Source of the DNA: a virus
Strand: one strand, 5' to 3'
DNA: 20,884 nucleotides
Virus record (IMG/VR): IMGVR_UViG_3300044681_000134
Coordinates: 1-20,884 of that record
Below, piece by piece: positions 2,395-14,203 of this stretch (position 1 is its first letter; every line of letters begins with the position of its first letter). The translations under genes were made by a program, and so were the position numbers. Below the pieces are notes generated by a model that ran no database searches, was not told the DNA's origin, and worked only from the letters and a program-made list of their open reading frames with translations.

Positions 2395-5300
2395 ATGCCT
2401 AGCTATTACGCAAGGACCGCTAATGGTCAGACGATTGAGTTTAATCACCCCGATCAACTTAGTGATGACCAAATTAGAGAAATAGCCGCGTACCGTGCGT
2501 ATGAGCTGTCTCAAGACCCTTTTGCTGAATTAGAAGCAACCCCTCAGCAACCGCCAGAAGAATCTGGGCTTTTCGCGTCCCTTGAGTCTGGCGCTCGCAC
2601 CGCTGTCGGTACCGGTCTCTACGGGCTGGGTGAGCTGACTGGCCTTGAGGGCGTCTCTAAATACGGCGAAGAGATTCTGCAAGGGCAGCCGGGGTACGCT
2701 CCAATTACTTCTGAGGAAGTAGGCCAAGCGTTTGAACAGGGCGTAATGCCGGGCCTCGGTGCTGGTGCACAGTATGTAACTGAAGCTACGGGTGAAGTAG
2801 CCGGTGGATTGCCAGCGTACATAGCGACTGCATTAGGTGGTGCTAAGACCGGTGCGGCGTTGATGCCGATTCCGCAGTTCAAACCTGCGGCAGCGTTAGC
2901 TGGTTCAGTTATAGCTCCTGCCATGACCTATTTCTTTGGTCAGAACCGTCTGGCTCAAGAAGAACAAATTCGCAAAGCTGAGGAAGAAGGTGTACCGCCA
3001 CCTCAGTTCAATGACCTAGAAACCTTTGGCTACGGCCTGCTCCAGTCCGGCGTTGAACGTACGGGTATTGCAGTCTTGGCTAGACGCTTCCCGATCCTTA
3101 ACCGCTTGTTCGGCGGTAACAAAGCTGACGCTGATGCAGCGGCTAGAGAACTGGCCGAGCAGGGTCGCGCTGCGGCATTCGGTCGTGGTGCAGCTACCGG
3201 TGTGGTTACAGAAGTTCCGGTTGAGCTTACCCAGCAAGTGCTGGAGCGTATGGCGTCAGATCAGGAACTGACCAGCGACGAAGCCCTTGCCGAATACGTA
3301 GAAGTTATGAAGCGTACCGCTGCCGGTATCGCTCCGATCGGCGGTGTTACTGGTGTAGCGTCTCGCTCAGGTGCCATCTCCCGCCAAGAAGCGCAGCAGC
3401 GTCAGGCCCGCGAACAAGAGTTGGCGGAGATGCGTGCGCAGGCTACGGAGGCTGCTCAGACTGATCTTGCTGCGGTGCAAGCACGAGAGTTTGCTGAAGA
3501 GGAGCTGCCTGATTTTGGTGTGGGTTTCGCATCGACTGGTCTAGGACCCACAGTTAGCCGTGAAGGCATCATGTCTGACATCCGCGTGGCGGACGAAGAG
3601 TGGGATGTAGAACCGATACGCCAGAGATTGCAGGAGACTGCGAACGCAGTCACTCAGCTGACCGAGCAGAGCCGCAAGGCTATTGACGAGGTTGAGCGCA
3701 ACCAACTCTATGACGAGCTAAATATGGCTCGCACCGAGAACATATTGGCGCAGGCAGCTACATACCGTGAAGCTGAGCAGCGTCTCCGCGCAGCGGGTAA
3801 GCAGAACGAAGCCAACGGGGCGATGCGTAAGTATTACAGCACCCTCGACAAGGCCAAGGTTGCGTTCGATCAGGTGCAGAACCAAGAAATCCGCACGGAG
3901 CTTGGCGCGACGTTGGAGCAAGTTACGGCTAAACCGGAAGGGTTGGAGCCTACTACCACTACTCCAAGCGCTGCCGCTAAAGAAACCGTCACTTTATATC
4001 GTGGTGTTCCTGAAGGTAGAGATCCGATGGCACCTAGTGATATTGGCGGTTTGTTCTTCTCCCCAAGCAAGGATGAGGCGGCTGCTTACGGTGGCGAAAA
4101 CGCGGTAATTGCTGAAAAAACCTTCGATTTTGAAAATTTGCTTACCGGCAAAAACTGGATGGATGTCAAATCTAAACTTGGTTTAGAGAAGAACGCGCAG
4201 TGGAAAGATATTACGTCGGCAGCTAAACAGGCTGGATTTGACGGAATTAAATATAGCGGAAGCAACGGGCTGGAATATATTGTTCTTGATAAAGCCCCAC
4301 AGACCCCAACTCCGACTATTGCTCCGCAGGCAGTATCCGCTCAGATCGGGCTGAGCCCACGCTCAAACGCAGCCAAGGCTATCGACCAGCTGGACATCAA
4401 CACGCCAGAAGGGCGGGCACAGGCTCGTGAAATCATCAACGCCGTTCGTGATGCGAAGGGCACGTCTCCCAAGACTATTGAGCGTATGGCACAGAGCCCG
4501 CTCGTGCAGGAGCTGGATGCAGAAGGCCAAGGTGAGCTAGAAGTAGACGTCACTGAACCGACCCTGCAAGAGTACGCCCGCATGTGGGCTGAAGCCAAGG
4601 CTGCTAAGAATGAAGCTGGTGCAGACGCTATCAGAAGTGAAGCAACTCGCGTGTATAGCCCATCCGACTTTGACGCTGAGATTCAATCTGCGGTTATGCG
4701 GTTGGCGGCTGAAAGAGACATTGATATATCAAAACCAGCAAAAAGCCAGATAGAACTCGACCGAGACGCCCGCTGGTCTGAAAACCAAGACAATGACCTC
4801 CGCGCCAATATGCGCGATGAAAACACGCTGGGTGTGCTGGAAGCGCTTAAGAGGAACGAGAACCCAGTCATTGCGGCGGTAGCTCAGCGTTTTGACGAGA
4901 TTCCGACTACAACTCCGGCTGTAAACATCGACGAGGCGGCGATTGTAAACGCCGTTAGGCGCAGAAGGTTGGGTAAGGACGCTGAGATTGCTGTGGCGGG
5001 CATGTTCGACCCGAACACCAACACCGTCGTCATGCGCGATGAGCTGGCAGCTGGCAATCCAGAATTTGTTGCCCACGAGCTTGTCCACGCTCAAGCCTCC
5101 GATGTACTCGACTCCAAAGTAAAAAACTTAACCGATACCCAACGTGCGGGTGTAGAGCAGCTGAAGAAGCTGTACAAATACGTTAAAGAAAATACTCCAA
5201 CCGACCTCATAGAGGCGCAATACGCGCTAACTTCTGTCGACGAGTTCCTTTCCGAGGGTATGGGCAACAAGCGTTTTCAGGACTACCTGAAGACTGTCGA

Positions 5301-8300
5301 ATACAAGAACACGAACGCATGGTCTGAGTTCGTTGCAGCCATTGCCAAGATGCTCGGCCTCAAGCCGGATACTGCGTTCACTGAACTACTGAGTGCTTAT
5401 GAACAAATTACTACGCGACCTGAAGCGAAAGCTCCTCCTAAATCTGAGCAAGTTACCCCTACCAAAAAGCGTAAAGCACCGGCTGACGTTGGAACTCCTG
5501 AAACTCTAACTGCGGCGGCAGTCCAGCGGTACGGGAAGGCGTACCAGCAGGCGCGTAAGACTGACAAGTTCCCCGGTGAAGAGGCTGTCCGCGTCCGTGA
5601 GGTGATCGAAAAAGCGATCAAGGAAGCAGGCGGCAAGAAGGCTGATATTGCAAAAGTACGTGGTGCGATTGCCAAAGCTGAACGCTTAGAAACCGAGGCG
5701 CTAACACGTCCAGAACGCAAAAAAGCCGAAGCCAAGGCCAAGCAGGAGCAGAAGTTCAGAGAGCGTGAGGAAGCTGCTCAGGTTGAACGCCAGAAAGAGA
5801 TTGCAGAGGGCGCCAAGGAGACTGAAAAGCTCCAAGAGCGTGAGCGCCAGCGTCGTGCACGCGGCGCCGGTGTAGAGCCGACTGACCTCCTCCAAGCGTC
5901 GATCGAGCGCCAGCTGAACGAGCTGCGCAATATGGCAGAGGCTAAGCGCAGAAATGAGATGCGTCCGCTGCTGAAGAAGATCATCGCTCGTGTGCGTGAG
6001 CTGAATCCTGAGTGGCGTGCTGGCGACAGCGAGGCCAAGATTATTGATTCTGTGCTGCGGGCACCGAGTCCGGTGGGCTTCATGCGTTCTATCCGCAGCC
6101 AGTACGACCCGATGTACCAAGCGTACTTGCAGGGCAGTCTGGGTGTTGACGAGGAAATGGGCTTGACCGAGACCGACGCGATGGTCGGCGGTATGCGCCA
6201 AGAGTTCGAGCAGCAGATGGCGCGCATGGAGCAGGTGATGACCGAGACCGATGCGTTTAACGACGCTGAGATCGACGAGATCATGGCCGCTATGCGTGTG
6301 CTGAAGAATCCGAAATCAGACCCAGAAGCAGCTGTAGAAGCCCAAGAAGTTATTCAGAAGTACGACGACATCGTCCGTGCTGAGCTTACCCGTGAAGAGG
6401 GTGAGCTGATGTTTATGATTTCTGGCGGTAAAAAGGCCGTTAGGGTGAGACAGTCCTCTATCCGTCAAGCGTTGGCTGAGTACTCTATGTCGGATGGTAA
6501 AACCCGTGCGTATATTGCATGGGTAGATCCGAAACAGTTCGTGGAGCTGAACACTGAGTCTGCTGCTGAGGCTGAATCAATACTTAACAGCTTTAAGTAT
6601 GGCACTAAAGATGGAAAGATCGAAACCAGAAAAATTATTGAAGAAGGTTGGCCTCGCATACCTTACGTGAGAGTAGGTAAAGAGATTTTGGAAGGCGAGC
6701 CATACGGATCCTTGGGCAAGACTTACCACAGAGGCGAAGTAGACTGGGGCGCGCACGAAGGCCGTCACAGAGCCGCTGCTTTAGCCGCAGCTGGCGTAGA
6801 GCGCATGCCTGTAGTTATTCAAATTAACGACGTGCCGTATTTAGATCCGGGTCAGATGCCTATTTTCACGCAAAGAGCGACGTTCTTTGGTGATACCGCA
6901 GCTCCGCTCGCATCAGCAACGCTTACTAACCCAAACAATTTAGTGTTGGGCATGGACGTTGTGGATTCGGTACCGTTAAGTAACAAAAAACTTGCGGAAA
7001 TAAACGACATGTTCGGTGTAGTAAAAACCGAACCAGAAACCGAAACCGGGCCAGAAGTAGAAGCCGCTTTAGAAGCAGGCGAAGTCCTCTTCAAGATTGA
7101 CACGGAAGCCACTAGAGCCGCAGAGGAGCGCGTAACCGCGTCTGGCGGTCGCATATTCAGCAACGAGCAGGATCGTAAGGGTTTGCTCCGCAACATGAAG
7201 GACTTCGGCTTCAAGGAAGAAGACGGCCAGATGGTGCGTAAGGGTGCCAACGACTACGTCAAGGATAGCGTGACCGTAACTGACTGGGTTGCCACTAAGT
7301 TCCTGTCCTCTGACTCTGCGGTCGTCAACGGCATCCGCCGTCGCTTGCGTGAGATGAACGTCAGCGAGCACGAGTTCTTAGGCAGTATGCTGAACGCCTC
7401 CACATCGCAGGTGTGGCACGCTGAAGCCCTCGGTGCTGTAACTCTGGAGTTCGGCAACCTGCGTTACAACGAGGAGCTGCACAAGTACGAAGGCATCCAA
7501 GACGTCAATAATTACAAGACGTTAATTGGCAAACTTGAAGAAATTTCTAAGGACCGTGGCATTCCGATGAATGTCATCGAGTCCGACGCGCACCGCTACG
7601 TGGAAGCCAAGCGCCTGCTGGCTATCCGCAACGAGCAGGAACTCATCCAGCGCAAGATCGACGCACTGAACAAGTCAGGCCGCATCAGTAACAAGCGCAA
7701 GGCGCAGAAGCTGCAAAAGTACGCAGATCGCTACATCCACATGGACGACGCGCAGATCCGTACGGCTCTGGAAGCTGGCAAGGCTATCCCTGAATACAAC
7801 GACGTGTTCAAGATTTGGGACGGCATGCGAAAGAACGTCATCAAGGTGATGGTGGATTCCGGGCTGGTTGACCCGTATGAAGCTGAAGTCTGGTTAGACA
7901 ACTCAGACTATGCGCCGTTTTACCGTAAGACGCAGCTTGAAGCGAAGCAAGGTCCGAAGGAGTATATCAGCGGGCTTGTAGCAGATCCGAACTTGAAGCG
8001 ATTCAAGGGCACTGACGCTGAAGTCAACAATGTGTTCGACAACATGGCGAAGTGGGTCGAGTTTTATGTTTCCGCTTCTGTGCGCAACAACTCTGCTCGC
8101 CGGATGATTCAAGAGATGCGCCGTGTGGGCATGGCCCGTGCGGTTGACGCGAAAGAAAAGCTCAGCCCGTCCGAGCGGGAACGCCGTGTAGGCGTGTGGG
8201 AGAAGGGCGAGAAGAACTTCTACGTCGTCGAACAGACGATTTTCCTAGAAGCGTTCAAGGGCATGGAGTCAGCAGGTATTCCTGTGATTGGCATCGCTGC

Positions 8301-9825
8301 CAAGTTCACCGACATGCTGCGTAAAACCGTTGTACTCAACCCGATATTCTCACTGGCGCAGCTCAGTCAGGACTCATTCGGCGCGATGTTCACTTCTGGG
8401 CTACCGCTGCAAACCGCGGTGAAGCTGCCGATCCGAGTGGTGAAAGAGTTTATTAAGACTCTGGACGGCACCAGTGCATCGCACAGCGAGCTCCGCCGTA
8501 TGGGTGCTGTGGGCGTGCGCGACTACAACGCCGCAGTTGTGATCCGTGAAGCAGAAAGTTTCCTGACCAATATGCAGGATGCCAAGGCTGGCCCGCTACG
8601 CCGACTGATGCGTGGGCTTGAGAACTTCTCAATGGCGTCAGATAACGCTGTGCGTCAGGCGATTTACGAGCTGTCGCAGGAAAACGGTGCGACTAAGGCT
8701 GAAGCCATCGAGAAGGCGTTTGAAGTCATCAACTTCCGCCGTAAGGGCTCTTCGCCCACCATCCAGTTGGCAAACCGTCTGGTGCCGTTCTTTAACGCCT
8801 ATCTACAGGCGCTGAGCGTTCAGCAGAAAGTATTGGCAGGCGAAGGTGTTTCACCACGCAACAAGAAGAGTTGGAACGAGTTTACGCAGAACCTCGCGGC
8901 GTTCACTGCGCTGTCTATATTTATGGCGCTCCTGAACGAGGACGACGAAGAGTATCAGCGCATGGAGCCCTATGTGCGCAACCGCATGTGGTACCTCGGT
9001 AACGGCTTTGGGCTGCCAATTCGTACTGACTTGTTCCTCCTACCCAAGATTATTGCTGAAGAAGTCACTCGTATGGCGTATGACTCCGCATCGGCAGATC
9101 CGGGCGTGCTGAAGAAGGCAATCAAGGAAGGACTGGCTAACGGCCTGTTTGGCCCGACCGCAGTGCCGCAGATATTTAAGCCAACCATCGAAGTTGCGAT
9201 TGACCACAGCTTCCATACAGGTCGCGCGCTGACTCCGGCGTATGCCGAGGGTTTACAGAACGAGTTCCAGTACAACGAGTACACCTCTGAGCTGTCTAAG
9301 CTGATTGGTGCTGGTGTAGACGGTTCGCCAATTCTGATTGAGCACTGGTTGCGTGGCACGTTTGGCTCAGCTGCTGGGCTTCTGATGTGGACCTCAAATC
9401 TGTGGGGCATGGGTGCTGGCATCCGTCCGCCTGAGAACTTCCGCGAGATTGCAACCTCTGCACCGGGTATGAGTCGCTTCCTGTCCAGAGAGTTTGGTGG
9501 CGGCCTGCGTTCTATGTTCTACGATGCGGCCAAGCTGTCTAACGAAGCCAAATCTACATATACAACGCTATCTACTCGCGACCCAGAAGGCGTTGACGCG
9601 TGGCTGTCTGAGGATGACAACCTGATCCGTGCGTTGTCTGACGAAACGCTTCGTGAGTACCAGAAGGAAATTGGCAAGATTCGCAGAGAGATACGCGACG
9701 TGTCGCTGTCTACACAGCTGGATAACAACTTCAAGCAGGAGTATTTGCGCGAGCTGCGTAACTACGAGCAGATTATGCTTGAGGCTATGGACATCAAGGG
9801 CATTCGGAAAACTCTGAACATGTAA
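2395..9825 (+). CDS. 2476-aa polyvalent phage protein (ART-like, zinc metallopeptidase, ParB-like, LPD38-like)
   Basis: The ATG at 2395 has AAGGG spaced 7 bases upstream, and the frame is intact for 7.4 kb. Layout: residues 1-40, a small N-terminal motif; about 60-180, a Gly/Ala-rich hydrophobic region; 325-520, helical; about 530-640, ADP-ribosyltransferase-like (LYRG with R536, FFSPS at 554-558, E627 in LEYIVLD); about 880-990, zincin metallopeptidase (HELVH 894-898, likely third ligand in DEFLSEG 949-955); 1103-1160, Lys/Glu/Arg coiled coil; about 1373-1485, ParB/sulfiredoxin-like (HEGRHRAAAL from 1454); C-terminal third resembling LPD38 (NPIFSLAQLSQDSF from 1982, LVPFFNAY 2129-2136). Phage polyvalent proteins are known to combine such domains and are thought to enter the cell with the DNA. 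The peptidase may cut the polyprotein. Domain names come from motif recognition, not a profile search. Function as an injected effector carrier is inference. Confidence 0.9.
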   Translation: MPSYYARTANGQTIEFNHPDQLSDDQIREIAAYRAYELSQDPFAELEATPQQPPEESGLFASLESGARTAVGTGLYGLGELTGLEGVSKYGEEILQGQPGYAPITSEEVGQAFEQGVMPGLGAGAQYVTEATGEVAGGLPAYIATALGGAKTGAALMPIPQFKPAAALAGSVIAPAMTYFFGQNRLAQEEQIRKAEEEGVPPPQFNDLETFGYGLLQSGVERTGIAVLARRFPILNRLFGGNKADADAAARELAEQGRAAAFGRGAATGVVTEVPVELTQQVLERMASDQELTSDEALAEYVEVMKRTAAGIAPIGGVTGVASRSGAISRQEAQQRQAREQELAEMRAQATEAAQTDLAAVQAREFAEEELPDFGVGFASTGLGPTVSREGIMSDIRVADEEWDVEPIRQRLQETANAVTQLTEQSRKAIDEVERNQLYDELNMARTENILAQAATYREAEQRLRAAGKQNEANGAMRKYYSTLDKAKVAFDQVQNQEIRTELGATLEQVTAKPEGLEPTTTTPSAAAKETVTLYRGVPEGRDPMAPSDIGGLFFSPSKDEAAAYGGENAVIAEKTFDFENLLTGKNWMDVKSKLGLEKNAQWKDITSAAKQAGFDGIKYSGSNGLEYIVLDKAPQTPTPTIAPQAVSAQIGLSPRSNAAKAIDQLDINTPEGRAQAREIINAVRDAKGTSPKTIERMAQSPLVQELDAEGQGELEVDVTEPTLQEYARMWAEAKAAKNEAGADAIRSEATRVYSPSDFDAEIQSAVMRLAAERDIDISKPAKSQIELDRDARWSENQDNDLRANMRDENTLGVLEALKRNENPVIAAVAQRFDEIPTTTPAVNIDEAAIVNAVRRRRLGKDAEIAVAGMFDPNTNTVVMRDELAAGNPEFVAHELVHAQASDVLDSKVKNLTDTQRAGVEQLKKLYKYVKENTPTDLIEAQYALTSVDEFLSEGMGNKRFQDYLKTVEYKNTNAWSEFVAAIAKMLGLKPDTAFTELLSAYEQITTRPEAKAPPKSEQVTPTKKRKAPADVGTPETLTAAAVQRYGKAYQQARKTDKFPGEEAVRVREVIEKAIKEAGGKKADIAKVRGAIAKAERLETEALTRPERKKAEAKAKQEQKFREREEAAQVERQKEIAEGAKETEKLQERERQRRARGAGVEPTDLLQASIERQLNELRNMAEAKRRNEMRPLLKKIIARVRELNPEWRAGDSEAKIIDSVLRAPSPVGFMRSIRSQYDPMYQAYLQGSLGVDEEMGLTETDAMVGGMRQEFEQQMARMEQVMTETDAFNDAEIDEIMAAMRVLKNPKSDPEAAVEAQEVIQKYDDIVRAELTREEGELMFMISGGKKAVRVRQSSIRQALAEYSMSDGKTRAYIAWVDPKQFVELNTESAAEAESILNSFKYGTKDGKIETRKIIEEGWPRIPYVRVGKEILEGEPYGSLGKTYHRGEVDWGAHEGRHRAAALAAAGVERMPVVIQINDVPYLDPGQMPIFTQRATFFGDTAAPLASATLTNPNNLVLGMDVVDSVPLSNKKLAEINDMFGVVKTEPETETGPEVEAALEAGEVLFKIDTEATRAAEERVTASGGRIFSNEQDRKGLLRNMKDFGFKEEDGQMVRKGANDYVKDSVTVTDWVATKFLSSDSAVVNGIRRRLREMNVSEHEFLGSMLNASTSQVWHAEALGAVTLEFGNLRYNEELHKYEGIQDVNNYKTLIGKLEEISKDRGIPMNVIESDAHRYVEAKRLLAIRNEQELIQRKIDALNKSGRISNKRKAQKLQKYADRYIHMDDAQIRTALEAGKAIPEYNDVFKIWDGMRKNVIKVMVDSGLVDPYEAEVWLDNSDYAPFYRKTQLEAKQGPKEYISGLVADPNLKRFKGTDAEVNNVFDNMAKWVEFYVSASVRNNSARRMIQEMRRVGMARAVDAKEKLSPSERERRVGVWEKGEKNFYVVEQTIFLEAFKGMESAGIPVIGIAAKFTDMLRKTVVLNPIFSLAQLSQDSFGAMFTSGLPLQTAVKLPIRVVKEFIKTLDGTSASHSELRRMGAVGVRDYNAAVVIREAESFLTNMQDAKAGPLRRLMRGLENFSMASDNAVRQAIYELSQENGATKAEAIEKAFEVINFRRKGSSPTIQLANRLVPFFNAYLQALSVQQKVLAGEGVSPRNKKSWNEFTQNLAAFTALSIFMALLNEDDEEYQRMEPYVRNRMWYLGNGFGLPIRTDLFLLPKIIAEEVTRMAYDSASADPGVLKKAIKEGLANGLFGPTAVPQIFKPTIEVAIDHSFHTGRALTPAYAEGLQNEFQYNEYTSELSKLIGAGVDGSPILIEHWLRGTFGSAAGLLMWTSNLWGMGAGIRPPENFREIATSAPGMSRFLSREFGGGLRSMFYDAAKLSNEAKSTYTTLSTRDPEGVDAWLSEDDNLIRALSDETLREYQKEIGKIRREIRDVSLSTQLDNNFKQEYLRELRNYEQIMLEAMDIKGIRKTLNM
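3961..4310 (+). other. ADP-ribosyltransferase-like domain inside the giant protein
   Basis: Translated residues of about 523-639 show the three-part signature of R-S-E type ADP-ribosyltransferases: Arg in LYRG (R536), an aromatic-Ser-x-Ser strand (FFSPS, S556 and S558) followed by a helix with AAAYGG, and a late strand containing a Glu (E627 in LEYIVLD). Such enzymes transfer ADP-ribose from NAD+ to a target protein, nucleic acid or small molecule. Known family members sit in phage polyvalent proteins. The DNA here is about 42% GC by hand count over 4081-4260, against 57% at 4381-4440. The target is unknown, and activity is not proven by motif spacing alone. Confidence 0.65.
5000..5400 (+). 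other. Zincin metallopeptidase domain inside the giant protein
   Basis: The HExxH motif HELVH (residues 894-898) lies in a helix preceded by a beta-type segment (NTNTVVMRDELAAGNPEFVA). A downstream acidic DEFLSEG (949-955) would give the third zinc ligand, as in gluzincin-like peptidases. The segment that follows (W-x-x-F with a hydrophobic helix, residues about 974-1000) is the usual tail of the metallopeptidase domain seen in polyvalent proteins. The likely role is self-processing of the 2476-residue chain or cleavage of a host protein; neither can be told from the sequence. Confidence 0.75.
6481..7080 (+). other. ParB/sulfiredoxin-like domain inside the giant protein
   Basis: Residues of about 1373-1485 read as an N-terminal strand (AYIAWVDPKQFVEL), an internal strand with IPYVRVGKE, then AHEGRHRAAALAAAG (from 1453) followed by ERMPVVIQI. 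A Gly-x-His-Arg loop before an Ala-rich helix and a PV-V/I strand is the hallmark of the ParB/Srx fold, which binds and hydrolyses nucleotides and in some members acts as a nuclease. The DNA drops to about 40% GC (lines 6601 and 6961) against 58% at 7321-7380. Whether it is a CTPase, a nuclease or a protein modifier cannot be said. Confidence 0.6.
8300..8870 (+). other. LPD38-like region of the giant protein
   Basis: Residues of about 1970-2160 carry a helical scaffold with NPIFSLAQLSQDSFGAMF, a later SMASDNAVRQAIYE helix, an EVINFRRKGSS turn and RLVPFFNAYLQAL. This order (Asn-Pro..Asp, then Ala-x-Arg-x-Ala, then Phe-Arg-x-x-Gly, then Pro-Phe-Phe-Asn-Ala) is what I associate with the C-terminal 'large polyvalent protein-associated domain' class, specifically LPD38. 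It probably provides packaging or assembly contacts in the virion. The assignment is from memory of the family pattern. Confidence 0.55.
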
Positions 9826-9927: not shown

Positions 9928-10119
9928 CTACCGCACTCTCCACGCCCGTAAACCCTTTACGAACTCTTCTGTCACGTTTTTAACGCTCATAGAGTACCCA
10001 AAATCGTCGGCCACCTTGCGGATTCTGCTCTCTAGGGACTTACAGTCTAGGCAGGGGACAAAAAAGCTGTCCCCAACCCGCATACCGCTTATTGCCGCCT
10101 TAAGATTCCATTTCAGCAT
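9928..10119 (-). CDS. 63-aa small phage protein at the operon end
   Basis: The start chosen is the ATG at 10119, which has GGAAG six bases upstream; a longer version from a TTG at 10143 lacks a site. It overlaps the 3' end of the primase-helicase gene by 20 bases in another frame, which suggests coupled translation. The sequence has a GDSFFVPC segment, a basic helix (SLESRIRKVADDFGY) and an end, GLRAWRVR. I recall small phage proteins with this 'GDSFFVP ... G-hR-hWR' plan, possibly nucleic-acid binding, but no function is established. It is the last gene before the leftward terminator. Confidence 0.75.
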   Translation of the reverse strand: MLKWNLKAAISGMRVGDSFFVPCLDCKSLESRIRKVADDFGYSMSVKNVTEEFVKGLRAWRVR

Positions 10120-12958
10120 CGTTATCTTCCGGTAAGGCTTCAACTGACGCGATAAACGCTTCGGCCTCTTCCGGGGCTACCAGAAATTCTGCTGCGTCCA
10201 CTGGCGGCGACATAGTAAATTTAGTTTTGGAGAGCATCCGCTTCTTGACTTTGCGGCGGAAAGTGTAAGACCCGCCAGTCACCCGGCAGTCATTCAGCAC
10301 GTCGTCAATCGTGAACTGGCGGTCGGTGCAGTATTCGCGCAGATCCTTGTAGCTGATGTACAGCAGGTTACCCTCTTCCTCAAAGCGTACGGTACAGCGT
10401 GAGCCGTTGGGAACAATCTTGCCGTGGTCCCCAGACATCGGGTTAATCAGCGTAGAAATCACGGTGGTGTTTCTTAGGTTTTCGTAGATGAACTCGCTCA
10501 CCAGCTCAAACGCATCTACCACGTCGTTCTTAACCGTGTTGCGTGCTTCGTTGATCCTACTGACCATGAAGTCTTCGAGGCGGTCCATAGGGAACTGGCA
10601 CAAGTCCAGCTTCTGCGTAACGACGTTAGCAACCTGAACGGCAGCGAATAAGCCCGTGTGAAACCGCTCCTCAATCTTCTTGTTCACTCGTTTCCAGATA
10701 CGCTTGCGTGCCTTGTCGATCAGCTCCGGTATCTTGTCACCGTTATTGACCATCCACTTAGCCCACACATCGCCCGCAACACCATAGTTTTCTTCCAGCA
10801 GCGCAAACAACTCATCTGCCCCTTCAACCGTCTGGCGCTTGACTGGAATTTCGATCAGTCGCATCAGCTCGCCGTCCGGTCTGGCCTTCAGCTTAATCAG
10901 CTTGCTGACCATAGAGGAGTTTGAGTTCATCAGGTGGATGGTGTTCCACGTAGCTTCGTTATGCCGCTCGGTATTGCTCGTCGAGTTCATGCGGTTCTTA
11001 CCACGGCCCTGTGATGTGCCGTAGATTTCATCTGACAAGAACTCAGCCGGAGCGTTAGTCATTTCGTCCGACATAGCCACGAGGTTGTTATGCACGCCGA
11101 GGCGGTGCTGGCGCGAGGCCGGTGTATCACGCTGAGTCAGCATAGTTCTGTCTGGATGCCCAAACACGCTGAGTGCGAGCCTGCCTGCGGTTGACTTACC
11201 CGTACCTGATTCGTTACTGATGAGGTTGATAACGCCGCCAGCTACTCCGGTGAACTTCATCAGGGGAGCGGCGAACCCGCACAGGGCCACAAGCTGCAAC
11301 GCCTCCAGCCCCGGCTTGTTAATCGCGTTGAAGATTTCTTTCCATGTTTCCAGAGAACCTTTCATACCAAACGAGTCGATGATGTTCGCAGTGGTGCTGC
11401 TCGGGAAGTTGTGGCTGGGCTCTGATTTGCCTTTCTCATACACGCGATGCCCAACTACAAACTCTGTGTTGGCAGCGTGCCATCCAAACTGTAGGCGGGC
11501 TTCTTTTGCTTTTTCCCGCATCTGGAGTTCTTTGGTGTACCTGATTGCGTAGTCCATAATCTCGCTCATCTGTCTCTTGTTAGCGGCGACGCCTTTAGCG
11601 CCAAAAATCTTCTTAAATTGTTCTTGCGCGTGCATGTCCTTTACCGGAACCATGAACTCGCGCTCTCCGTCCATAGGCAGGTGGAGGTGAAACACCACAC
11701 ACTCGCCGTCATTCGGGTCAACTAGGCGAGTCGAAGCGTACAGATCGTTTTCGTACACCAGATGCTCAACCTTGTCACCGTCCGCATCGCGCTCTTCCCT
11801 GTACACACCGCCGTTAGCGCCACGGAAATATGGGAAGGGCGGCTTAAACAGCGCCTGCTTCACTACCTGAGTGCTGATACTCCCATCCGACTCTTCTTCC
11901 TCATCCGGTGCAGCAAACAACTCAGACTCGTCACGCTTGATTTCAGCGCCCAACTGAATCGGGCTAGTAACCTGCTGCGTACAGCCTTGGCACAGATCGG
12001 AACTCAACCCACGAATTACTTCACAGGTGTACGGCCCCTTGGTCAGGCTGGCTTTCTCCAGCGTATCTTCCGGCGTGTAATCAGGATGCTTACTGGACAT
12101 CCTGTGTATGGCCGTGTCGCGGTCTACGCAAGCCCATGCGATAGACAAGCCAGCACGCCACATAGGCTCTTCCAGCTCAGCTTGGTTACTTATGACTTCC
12201 TTGAGGAAGTTGCAGCCCTTGTCCTTGAGGCTCTTCTGCGCAATCGTGCTGAAGCGCGACTGCTTGTTCCCAAGAATTGCTTTAGCTGTTTCGCTCAACT
12301 CAGCGGTGTCTACCTTAACGCGTGGCTTCTTCGGCTCCGGCAGGTCAAGTGCAGCTAAGCAGTCAGCAAACAGGTCAACGTCGATGGGCTCACCGTGTTC
12401 ACACTGAATAACTTGCTTCGGGTCGTCAGGGTTCTTGAAGTTCAACGTCTGCGGTATGCGCAGAATACGCGCTTCGTCAGCGGTGACTGCCGGGTCAGCC
12501 TCAAGGCCGAGGTGCTCACACGCACGCTTTAGCTTCTCAGCGATCGGAGACCATGCAGAACTAGGGATGTACTGAGTCAGCAGCCAGTAGACGTGAATCC
12601 CGTTGCCAGAATTAACGATGGTTGGATGCGGCAGCTTGACCTCTACCCTGAACTTCTCAAGGGCTTCGAGGGCTTCAGCCTGACTCGGATATGGCTTGTT
12701 CGTGCCACAATCTAGATCAAGCCAGAACGACTTCATCCACTGGGCATTTTCTTGCGTGCGCTTCTCACTGCCTTCCTTGTAGGAGGCGACAGCAAAGTAC
12801 GCATCTATCTTGCGATCAACGAAACTCTCGGCACGCTCGGCCAAGGTATCAATATCGTCTACAAATTCTTGAAGGACTTTTCCGTCACTTATGCCAACTA
12901 CACAATAGCGGCCTTCCTCTGGCAGCACTTCATGTAGGAAATCGGTTGTCGGGCTCAT
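10100..12958 (-). CDS. AEP primase fused to DUF927-type helicase (952 aa)
   Basis: The ATG at 12958 has a modest GGAA about 7 bases upstream. Residues 1-205 are an archaeo-eukaryotic primase domain: the metal-binding DLD at 81-83 (FWLDLDCG), SGNGIH at 117-122, and DEARILRIPQTLNFK from 161. Residues about 245-330 hold four cysteines (C249, C312, C323, C326) suited to a Zn or Fe-S site, as in PriL-like modules. Residues about 380-760 are the P-loop ATPase: Walker A SNESGTGKST at 581-590 (K588) and Walker B VAMSDE (D631, E632), the pattern of DUF927 helicases. The remainder is a helical and winged tail with an acidic end. It should unwind the fork and lay down primers, the single-chain equivalent of T7 gp4. 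It follows the likely SSB gene after a 172-base structured leader. Confidence 0.88.
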   Translation of the reverse strand: MSPTTDFLHEVLPEEGRYCVVGISDGKVLQEFVDDIDTLAERAESFVDRKIDAYFAVASYKEGSEKRTQENAQWMKSFWLDLDCGTNKPYPSQAEALEALEKFRVEVKLPHPTIVNSGNGIHVYWLLTQYIPSSAWSPIAEKLKRACEHLGLEADPAVTADEARILRIPQTLNFKNPDDPKQVIQCEHGEPIDVDLFADCLAALDLPEPKKPRVKVDTAELSETAKAILGNKQSRFSTIAQKSLKDKGCNFLKEVISNQAELEEPMWRAGLSIAWACVDRDTAIHRMSSKHPDYTPEDTLEKASLTKGPYTCEVIRGLSSDLCQGCTQQVTSPIQLGAEIKRDESELFAAPDEEEESDGSISTQVVKQALFKPPFPYFRGANGGVYREERDADGDKVEHLVYENDLYASTRLVDPNDGECVVFHLHLPMDGEREFMVPVKDMHAQEQFKKIFGAKGVAANKRQMSEIMDYAIRYTKELQMREKAKEARLQFGWHAANTEFVVGHRVYEKGKSEPSHNFPSSTTANIIDSFGMKGSLETWKEIFNAINKPGLEALQLVALCGFAAPLMKFTGVAGGVINLISNESGTGKSTAGRLALSVFGHPDRTMLTQRDTPASRQHRLGVHNNLVAMSDEMTNAPAEFLSDEIYGTSQGRGKNRMNSTSNTERHNEATWNTIHLMNSNSSMVSKLIKLKARPDGELMRLIEIPVKRQTVEGADELFALLEENYGVAGDVWAKWMVNNGDKIPELIDKARKRIWKRVNKKIEERFHTGLFAAVQVANVVTQKLDLCQFPMDRLEDFMVSRINEARNTVKNDVVDAFELVSEFIYENLRNTTVISTLINPMSGDHGKIVPNGSRCTVRFEEEGNLLYISYKDLREYCTDRQFTIDDVLNDCRVTGGSYTFRRKVKKRMLSKTKFTMSPPVDAAEFLVAPEEAEAFIASVEALPEDNDAEMES

Positions 12959-13130
12959 TAAGTGGTTCCGGCGAAATAATAGGGCGGCAGCGGTTACGCC
13001 TACCGTTTTCGGGGAAAACTCCCCTAGCCGCCCTTGCTTGGGCTATTCGATGCTTGACGGCGGGAGGGCCGACAGTATCACCGGTTTTCTGAAACAGGCA
13101 AGCTGGTTCACAACTTGCTTATATTCAGAA
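12959..13130 (-). promoter_or_regulatory. Structured leader upstream of the primase-helicase gene
   Basis: This is the longest gap in the leftward operon. AGGGCGGC (12981-12988) and GCCGCCCT (13027-13034) form an 8-bp perfect outer stem. It encloses CGGT/ACCG (12991-13005) and GGGG/CCCC (13011-13024), giving a three-way junction. An alternative stem GTTTTC/GAAAAC (13005-13019) excludes the GGGG/CCCC one. On the minus strand the outer stem is followed by ATTATTT and then the primase ribosome site. An upstream minus-strand CCCGCC could also pair with the 5' arm. This could be a leaky terminator or attenuator setting primase level below SSB, or a replication-origin structure. No coding sequence with a ribosome site was found in it. 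Confidence 0.5.
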
Positions 13131-14009
13131 TTATTCGTCGCCCCACTCGTCGAGGATGGAAGCCACGTCAGCCTTCTCTGCCTGCACAGGCTCAGCCTTC
13201 TTCTTGACCACCTTCGGCTCTTCAGCTGCGGCCTTCGGCTTTTCAAATCCGTCGTTGGCCTTCAGGGTTTCCTCGTCCTCACGCTTGACAAACTGACGAG
13301 GGCCGGTATGCGCCTTCGCATCAGAGGAGTCACCCTTGTTTTGCACGGCTGCCCACTCTTCTTCGTTCAGCGGACGAGCAGCGCGGAACATCAGCTTCGG
13401 CACTGGTGACTTGGTGTCGAACTTCACCTCAGTAACAACCTTGATGATGTCGTAGCCGAACTCAGCCAGCTTGCGTACATACGCTTGAAGCGGAGCGTAC
13501 TTGCTGCCGTCCTCAGCCTTACCGAACACAGAAGTGGCGGGCAGAGTCACGCCGTACACGTCACCACGCGGGTCGCCTTCCAGTACCACTGCAAGTCGCG
13601 CGGAGTAGCGGCAGGCACGCCCATCACCTTGACCCGAACCCTTCACATTCTGCGGGCAGTTGGCACACAGGCTGGCCTGCGGGCTTTCTACATTTTCGCT
13701 AGGAGCGTTGCCGTCGTCCGACCAGCACGCCGGACTGGATGCTTGGCCTTCCTTGTAGCTTCCCTCGTAGTAAGTGCGGGCAATAGCCGGAGCAGACTTC
13801 ACGACGATCACGTTCATCGCACGATCTTCGTTCTGTGCTACTTCCTGAGCACCGACCATCATGCGGAACACAGAACCCTTGAAGCTAATGCGCTTCAGGG
13901 ACTGACCTGCTCCACCACCGGCAAGTGCCTTGGCGGTATCGGAAAGTTCACCACCTTGCAGGTGGGCTGGCATGGTTCCCATGCCTTCAAATAGAGTCAT
14001 ATCAGACAT
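13131..14009 (-). CDS. Putative ssDNA-binding protein with Cys4 zinc site and acidic tail (292 aa)
   Basis: The ATG at 14009 is preferred over the adjacent GTG at 14012 because AAGGAG lies 7 bases before it. The ATG shares one base with the preceding TGA (TGATG). Residues of about 38-80 and 135-215 look like beta strands of an OB-type core. Between them C95, C115, C118 and C133 (with CANCPQNVKG) could bind zinc. Residues 225-280 are a disordered Lys/Glu/Ala linker, and the chain ends in ILDEWGDE, an acidic aromatic tip like those of phage and bacterial SSBs that recruit partners. It lies next to the primase-helicase in a replication operon. No sequence-level SSB signature is certain, so the role is inferred from architecture and place. 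Confidence 0.65.
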   Translation of the reverse strand: MSDMTLFEGMGTMPAHLQGGELSDTAKALAGGGAGQSLKRISFKGSVFRMMVGAQEVAQNEDRAMNVIVVKSAPAIARTYYEGSYKEGQASSPACWSDDGNAPSENVESPQASLCANCPQNVKGSGQGDGRACRYSARLAVVLEGDPRGDVYGVTLPATSVFGKAEDGSKYAPLQAYVRKLAEFGYDIIKVVTEVKFDTKSPVPKLMFRAARPLNEEEWAAVQNKGDSSDAKAHTGPRQFVKREDEETLKANDGFEKPKAAAEEPKVVKKKAEPVQAEKADVASILDEWGDE

Positions 14010-14203
14010 CACTGGTCTCCTTGTGCGTATGTAAATTGCTGGCGTTCGACGTAGTCGATTAGCGCAGCTTTCTTGAAAAACACCTTCTTCCCCAGCTTCA
14101 CAAACGGAATTGCACCCGAGTCACGAAGTTTGTCTAGGGAAGAAACCGACAGCCTGAGAAACTCAGCTGCCTCTTTCTTAGTCAAAAGTCCTAGGTCGCT
14201 CAC
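14009..14203 (-). CDS. Excisionase/AlpA-like helix-turn-helix protein (64 aa)
   Basis: The start is GTG at 14203, overlapping the upstream TGA as GTGA, with GAGG about 9-10 bases before it. The sequence LLTKKEAAEFLRLSVSSLD is a clear winged helix-turn-helix of the MerR/excisionase (HTH_17) type, followed by KLRDSGAIPFVKLGKK, the wing, and a short C-terminal helix ALIDYVE. Such 60-70 residue proteins bind DNA as excisionases, directionality factors or small regulators. No integrase is visible in the window, so a regulatory or origin-binding role within the replication operon is as likely as excision. The next gene (putative SSB) overlaps its stop by one base. Confidence 0.85.
   Translation of the reverse strand: MSDLGLLTKKEAAEFLRLSVSSLDKLRDSGAIPFVKLGKKVFFKKAALIDYVERQQFTYAQGDQ

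Follow-up and report, generated by a model that had tools for sequence, protein, structure and literature searches.

An int-alpA-like three-way-junction RNA in the leader of a phage primase-helicase gene, probably acting in cis on translation

Why does a gap of 172 bases precede a primase gene in this viral DNA, and does it hold a regulatory element? A sequence-only reading of the window (the whole stretch of 20,884 nucleotides analysed here, IMG/VR record IMGVR_UViG_3300044681_000134) had pointed to the gap and proposed that it holds a three-way-junction RNA with competing structures, serving as an attenuator or switch, or else the fold of a replication origin. The ORF list of the window confirms the gap at 12959-13130, between two minus-strand ORFs. 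The next gene is, as proposed, a primase-helicase (Pfam DUF927, 7.5e-25; PHROGs DNA primase/helicase, 6.4e-25), and it is presumably the gene controlled by the RNA. The upstream neighbour (13131-14012, minus strand) had been taken for an SSB gene, an identity that stays unproven: it has no Pfam match at E ≤ 0.01 and matches only PHROGs of unknown function. Just upstream of it, 14009-14203 (minus strand) encodes a 64-aa HTH_17 protein with a weak match to the Tn916 excisionase. Elsewhere in the window, a plus-strand ORF of 2,476 aa (2395-9825) has a PHROG of unknown function as its sole match.

The length of the gap is, by comparison with relatives, partly a peculiarity of the lineage. In all eight relatives examined, an ORF of 64-67 aa fills most of the gap and overlaps the stop of the upstream gene, leaving 81-86 nt, which hold the RNA and its tail only. 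The gap looks so long in this lineage alone; the window lacks the ORF that the eight relatives have. The ORF lies between the upstream gene and the RNA in L001, L002, L003, L004, L007, L010, L017, and L018, and in these loci it ends in QLKLF or QLKLL, which we take to resemble a beta-clamp binding motif. The features of the locus, all on the minus strand, are as follows.

10100-12958, minus strand: primase-helicase (DUF927), assigned with Pfam and PHROGs
12967-12969, minus strand: GGA, putative Shine-Dalgarno sequence of the primase-helicase, assigned from sequence
12970-12973, minus strand: CGCC, the single site for pairing with the H2 loop (alignment and primase-leader permutation)
12981-12990, minus strand: CU junction and 3' arm of P1 (GCCGCCCT) (inverted repeat, alignment, and covariation)
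12991-13005, minus strand: hairpin H2, CGGT-AGGCGTA-ACCG, with its loop at 12995-13001 (covariation)
12997-13000, minus strand: GGCG of the H2 loop, which can pair with the RBS-proximal site (pair kept in the window lineage)
13006-13010, minus strand: GAAAA junction from H1 to H2, invariant in nine aligned window-lineage sequences
13011-13024, minus strand: hairpin H1, GGGG-AGTTTT-CCCC (fold and window-lineage alignment)
13025-13026, minus strand: conserved UA junction, preceding H1
13027-13034, minus strand: 5' arm of the outer stem P1 (AGGGCGGC) (exact inverted repeat and covariation)
13035-13130, minus strand: rest of the gap, where relatives carry the 64-67 aa ORF

Most of the structure first described for the gap is borne out. 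The outer stem (12981-12988 with 13027-13034) is an exact inverted repeat, both inner stems form in the predicted fold, and ATTATTT follows the stem on the transcribed strand. Folding gave -66.2 kcal/mol for the minus-strand RNA (z = -4.43) and -70.2 kcal/mol for the plus strand (z = -3.69), with none of 200 shuffles as good in either case. The relevant strand is the minus (transcribed) one, on which the three-way junction lies, with 22 nt between the end of P1 and the ATG of the primase-helicase. Although the alternative stem (13005-13019, GTTTT/AAAAC) is able to form, it is not conserved: among six sequences checked, its GTTTT half occurs only in the window and in the near-twin L011, and is absent from L001, L007, L017, and L018. 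In some of the other primase leaders, GAAGA or GAACA takes the place of the GAAAA junction. Within 13035-13130, on the minus strand, the segments 13087-13093 and 13124-13130 form the arms of a further hairpin. A tRNA search found none, and a 10-nt inverted match of 90% between 12874-12883 and 13013-13022 was discarded, being near-palindromic and inside the primase ORF.

The idea of a regulatory three-way-junction RNA ahead of the primase is well supported, with compensatory changes present (see below); the attenuator and the origin suggested along with it are not supported. In favour of transcriptional attenuation or termination in the gap, a GC-rich stem is followed by A/T-rich sequence, and TTTT occurs within 14 nt in 19 of 78 family leaders. 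However, the terminator scan is empty at the element, the window-lineage tails (ATTATTT, ATTACTA, and similar) are not U-tracts, and the stem plus U-tract of a Rho-independent attenuator is lacking, which leaves this role very unlikely. The single promoter-like match is on the plus strand (13107-13134), versus 0.6 expected. The other role, a fold of the DNA itself that serves as an origin or single-strand initiation site, would suit a neighbour of the primase gene, but the GC skew shows no inflection near 13 kb; its sign changes at 9.5-10 kb, together with the coding strand. Moreover, elements of this kind are also found ahead of genes with no link to replication, such as those for endonucleases, Rha, and tail proteins, their complementarity is tied to ribosome-binding sites (RBSs), and G-U exceeds A-C in P1 (55 versus 29). 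We give a DNA element next to no credence.

To which family does the RNA belong? The alignments identify it as a divergent relative of int-alpA RNA (RF02996), an orphan family of Rfam. The window matches this model over its full length (positions 1-71 of 71) with 35.4 bits and an E-value of 6.2e-6, i.e., 0.4 bit under the gathering cut-off of 35.8, at which Rfam has no match in the window. A profile search of the window's own record with RF02996 gave no match at E ≤ 10, unlike the search with laxer filters. The int-alpA consensus core (three-way junction, CUAG, CGAAAA, CUG) is present in the alignment of the window, and the junction P1-UA-H1-GAAAA-H2-CU-P1' is shared end to end. The context is different. 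The name presumably implies a location between an integrase and alpA, whereas the window's element precedes a primase-helicase, with a short leader and a single loop site; AlpA is absent among the 25 Pfam families listed for 114 genes downstream of the wider family. A plus-strand match to HCV_5BSL1 (21.9 bits versus a cut-off of 44) was taken as chance, and blastn of the RNA core against phages gave nothing convincing (best E-value of 1). The int-alpA motif was reportedly defined in a paper of 2017. The literature searched, which excluded the motif-defining paper, contained neither a stated function for int-alpA nor the term RF02996; in the accessible part of one article, the motif is merely listed, in a table and one sentence (PMC12370729).

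A lack of compensatory changes in relatives had been named as grounds for refutation, and such changes were found. In an alignment of 89 rows, itself fitted to the structure, 11 of the 14 pairs have double changes, 99.2% of the cells are paired (versus 72.6% when shuffled), and the covariation score is 0.529, versus 0.095 when shuffled and 0.027-0.050 in slid controls. H1 looks invariant in these rows because the pattern used to find most loci fixed GG...CC within it; it does vary in the window lineage and in the loci found with the Rfam model. When only the nine window-lineage sequences are aligned, all cells are paired and double changes occur in 3 of 19 pairs, loop-site pairs included. From these nine sequences alone, with no int-alpA members, we built a covariance model (R1) and searched 100 loci: 95 that carry the motif and came from searches by pattern or protein, and five that the Rfam model had found. 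At E ≤ 1, R1 gave 89 matches spread over 87 loci; 54 had E < 0.01, and 45 of these lay outside the training set. The match at L120 (1158-1221) is clearly a false one. The model failed to detect 13 loci, including all five enterobacterial ones found with Rfam (L289, L298, L299, L301, L307). The Rfam cut-off was passed by 11 of 18 loci chosen among the pattern hits, and in 10 loci passing it R1 had nine matches at E < 0.01 and one, L171, at 0.32. As judged by these searches, the window-lineage model recognises many, albeit not all, members of the family at large.

What the RNA may do is suggested by its second hairpin. The H2 loop is commonly complementary to two downstream sites, one around 8 nt after the junction (site 1) and the other at the Shine-Dalgarno sequence of the next gene (site 2), a two-site complementarity that is new here. 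In this form, the idea of competing structures finds support at the level of the family, with two sites vying for one loop; the alternative stem originally put forward is not among them. We compared own with swapped loops in 91 clusters (2,000 permutations), using loci selected on the junction and H1 and not on the loop or the leader. At site 1, own loops scored 13.49 and swapped ones 8.41 (sd 0.22, z = 22.7, 0/2000); at site 2, the RBS, the values were 12.86 and 9.58 (sd 0.22, z = 15.2, 0/2000). The two control stretches gave no signal, with z = -1.5 for the 26 nt preceding P1 and z = 0.8 for 24 nt within the coding sequence, and the viral and genome subsets gave alike results. Site 1 starts at a median of 8 nt from P1 (10-90% range of 5-11, in the 69 leaders that match well). 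The end of site 2 lies a median of 8 nt before the start codon (63 leaders). The mean energies of the two duplexes are -6.92 (site 1) and -6.87 kcal/mol (site 2), with that of site 1 stronger in 38 of 78 cases. The stretch from site 1 to the start tends towards a weak hairpin that includes the Shine-Dalgarno (mean z = -1.40, n = 78, with 34 below -1.5). Among 10 elements found with Rfam, hand-picked from 15 believable parses of 29 loci and taken without permutation control, all have at least five complementary bases at the RBS, and six have at least four in the site 1 zone.

The same signal appears when the analysis is confined to primases. Out of 169 primase loci with a leader of at least 100 nt (some contigs being counted more than once), 78 carry the element, in 35 distinct forms; the other 91 have no such parse and include two other leader types and genes that, by eye, seem leaderless. 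With the misparsed L334 dropped, the primase-only test comprised 34 elements and 20 loops and gave z = 6.3 at site 1 (20 loops) and z = 3.9 at the RBS (18 loops), with 0/4000 permutations for each, in zones that were chosen after an earlier result had been seen and that, in the shortest leaders, share a few nt. The earlier zones, which cut site 1 in two, had given z = 3.4 for site 1 and z = 1.1 for site 2 (390/2000). Loop and site change together both at site 1 (ATGCCAA:TTGGCAT in L345, GCCGAA:TTCGGC in L372, CCGCA:TGCGG in L395) and at the RBS (ATCGCC:GGCGAT in L396 versus CCGCC:GGCGG in L386). The GGCG of the loop lies opposite CGCC in the window lineage, a pairing kept in 9/9 sequences; it is only 4 bp long and nearly invariant, and its sole support within the lineage is the G-U change to CGUC in two of the nine. 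The GGA lies directly 3' of CGCC and, in the window, 8 nt ahead of the ATG. We saw no second site and no RBS hairpin in this lineage. One primase relative, L117, has the same junction without convincing pairing between loop and tail.

These results lead us to think that the window probably encodes a cis-acting, int-alpA-like three-way-junction RNA, placed in the 5' leader of the primase-helicase and acting on translation. Comparison of sequences supports its structure, covariation, loop-site complementarity, and position; that the pairing changes translation, in which direction, and that the junction answers a trigger is what we infer from them. In the family at large, an H2 loop bound to the proximal site 3' of P1 would leave the Shine-Dalgarno free, and one bound to the Shine-Dalgarno, often displayed by the small RBS hairpin, would block the ribosome. 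The two pairings have about equal energy, as would be expected of a bistable switch. The leader of the window lineage appears to be a shortened version, in which one site is left; since its CGCC touches the GGA Shine-Dalgarno, formation of the pseudoknot should in itself block translation of the primase. The conserved junction may respond to a trigger, be it a protein, an RNA, a ligand, or upstream translation.

A narrower version of this explanation names the kind of trigger: a riboregulator that binds a ligand or protein in a UA/GAAAA/CU pocket and uses loop and sites as its expression platform. The letters of the junction are almost fixed, in contrast to P1 and H2, as in riboswitch cores; part of this fixity is selection, the loci having been found by the junction motif. 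Junctions can nevertheless be conserved for folding alone, and the downstream genes have no common pathway, and we regard this version as rather improbable. The preQ1 and SAM-II riboswitches are translational pseudoknots in which a loop pairs at or by the Shine-Dalgarno; the loop of this family seems to do likewise, with a junction core unlike theirs.

The main rival to cis control is a trans-acting role like that of C4. The C4 antisense RNA, or P4 CI RNA, acts by complementarity. In this scenario, an antisense RNA released from the leader would silence the RBSs of its own or related phages, like the immunity RNAs P1 C4 and P4 CI. The loop is indeed complementary to RBS regions, Rfam types int-alpA as an sRNA, and at least five T are found in the 10 nt after P1 in 25 of 78 leaders. 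C4 (RF01695, with its target RF03163) is likewise a phage RNA with hairpins inside an outer stem, the P4 operon with CI also carries the alpha primase, and the C4, isrK, and c4-a1b1 models detect P4 CI and its target. However, these models and int-alpA do not cross-match: RF01695 has no match at E ≤ 10 in 12900-13200 of the window, and int-alpA has none at E ≤ 5 in P4 8000-9300. The window-lineage tails lack a U-tract, and the target detected in P4 is upstream of CI, whereas both sites are downstream here and the proximal one is conserved in cis. The strongest complementarity is at site 1, with a narrow spacing that a purely trans-acting RNA would not need; this spacing, together with a signal above the one at site 2, favours a pseudoknot formed within one molecule, and with it control in cis. 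We deem the trans-acting role unlikely. In the part of PMC10111431 that could be consulted, the C4 and isrK profiles are described as picking up relatives of CI and seqA, and the word int-alpA is absent.

Cis control of this kind has a parallel in T4-type homing endonucleases. According to the accessible part of PMC2988022, hairpins hide the RBSs of I-TevI, segB, and mobE, and leader RNA holds back the translation of phage endonucleases, as well as of other genes, from long transcripts. Many int-alpA-like relatives precede HNH or GIY-YIG genes; in place of the hairpins sequestering the RBS that this source describes, they have a conserved three-way junction and a loop that might choose between two sites.

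The family is widespread. A loose pattern matched at least 119 stretches in viral contigs, some of them chance matches without stems, and a strict one matched 69 in the genome collection, mostly in Pseudomonadota by record titles, the others being from Planctomycetota, Bacillota, one cyanobacterium, one Streptomyces, and others. We parsed 139 distinct elements, 136 after filters. Among 149 genomes from the family of one host, 14 have RF02996 above the cut-off. An ATG ORF with a Shine-Dalgarno-like site begins 10-95 nt downstream of 113 out of 128 elements, versus 185 out of 1,280 random places. In 11 of 13 named phage records, an annotated gene begins 77-95 nt downstream of where the matched motif starts (the annotated start differs in Tyrion and IME307). 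The relatives sit ahead of HNH or homing endonucleases, DUF1376 proteins, and primase-helicases. From 126 downstream ORFs, 114 were scanned with Pfam (8 HNH_3, 6 DUF1376, 6 AP2, 5 DUF927) and PHROGs, in which single families reached at most 16 matches for an HNH endonuclease and at most 8 for a primosomal protein. In the phage records, the gene after the element encodes a Seg-like homing endonuclease (Rhizobium phage RHph_X2_25), Rha (two Acinetobacter phages), or, in one case, a winged-helix protein; the others encode hypothetical proteins.

It is an even question whether int-alpA-type RNAs form a broad class of bistable translational switches of phages and prophages, with a junction that reads a common signal of phage or host. 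A proximal decoy copy and the Shine-Dalgarno would then compete, at matched strength, for a single loop, and the genes so gated would be mobile endonucleases, replication initiators, and primases. The findings on the element give an orphan RNA family a testable function, predict its pairings base by base in well over 100 distinct elements, and link the expression of phage primases and homing endonucleases to one kind of RNA switch. If the junction does sense a signal, it would represent a new class of phage-borne regulators and a handle for synthetic control of translation.

Primase genes carry other leader structures as well. In a first sample, all 55 primases of at least 700 aa fell into three leader types, and a tree of 48 primases (18 of int-alpA type, 27 with a CGCCAG hairpin, 3 with a third hairpin) needs two changes between them. 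A wider sample of 92 primase loci included 42 of int-alpA type, one CGCCAG, and 49 others, several of them with a GAAGA junction; the notion that such leaders are universal at primases was dropped, as this sample held further types and seemingly leaderless genes. The CGCCAG-loop hairpin, whose stem varies, is found at L021 (6176-6245) and in 26 other primase leaders; the loop is invariant in 16 aligned leaders, a near-fixed GAGCGAAC precedes the start, and Rfam has no match in L021. From its sequence, the CGC of this loop could pair with a GCG by the start. The third structure, GGCTAGGTTTTTATCAACAAGGGGTTG...CCTAG, occurs with the same primase family in L027, L028, L035, and L068, with no Rfam match in L028. 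Simple GC-rich hairpins occur in the primase leaders of L335, L337, L338, L339, L340, L344, L348, L350, and L393. Judged by eye, their loop region seems complementary to a GCGG immediately ahead of the start codon, as with ACCGC in L335, and they are perhaps a simpler anti-RBS design at the primase gene.
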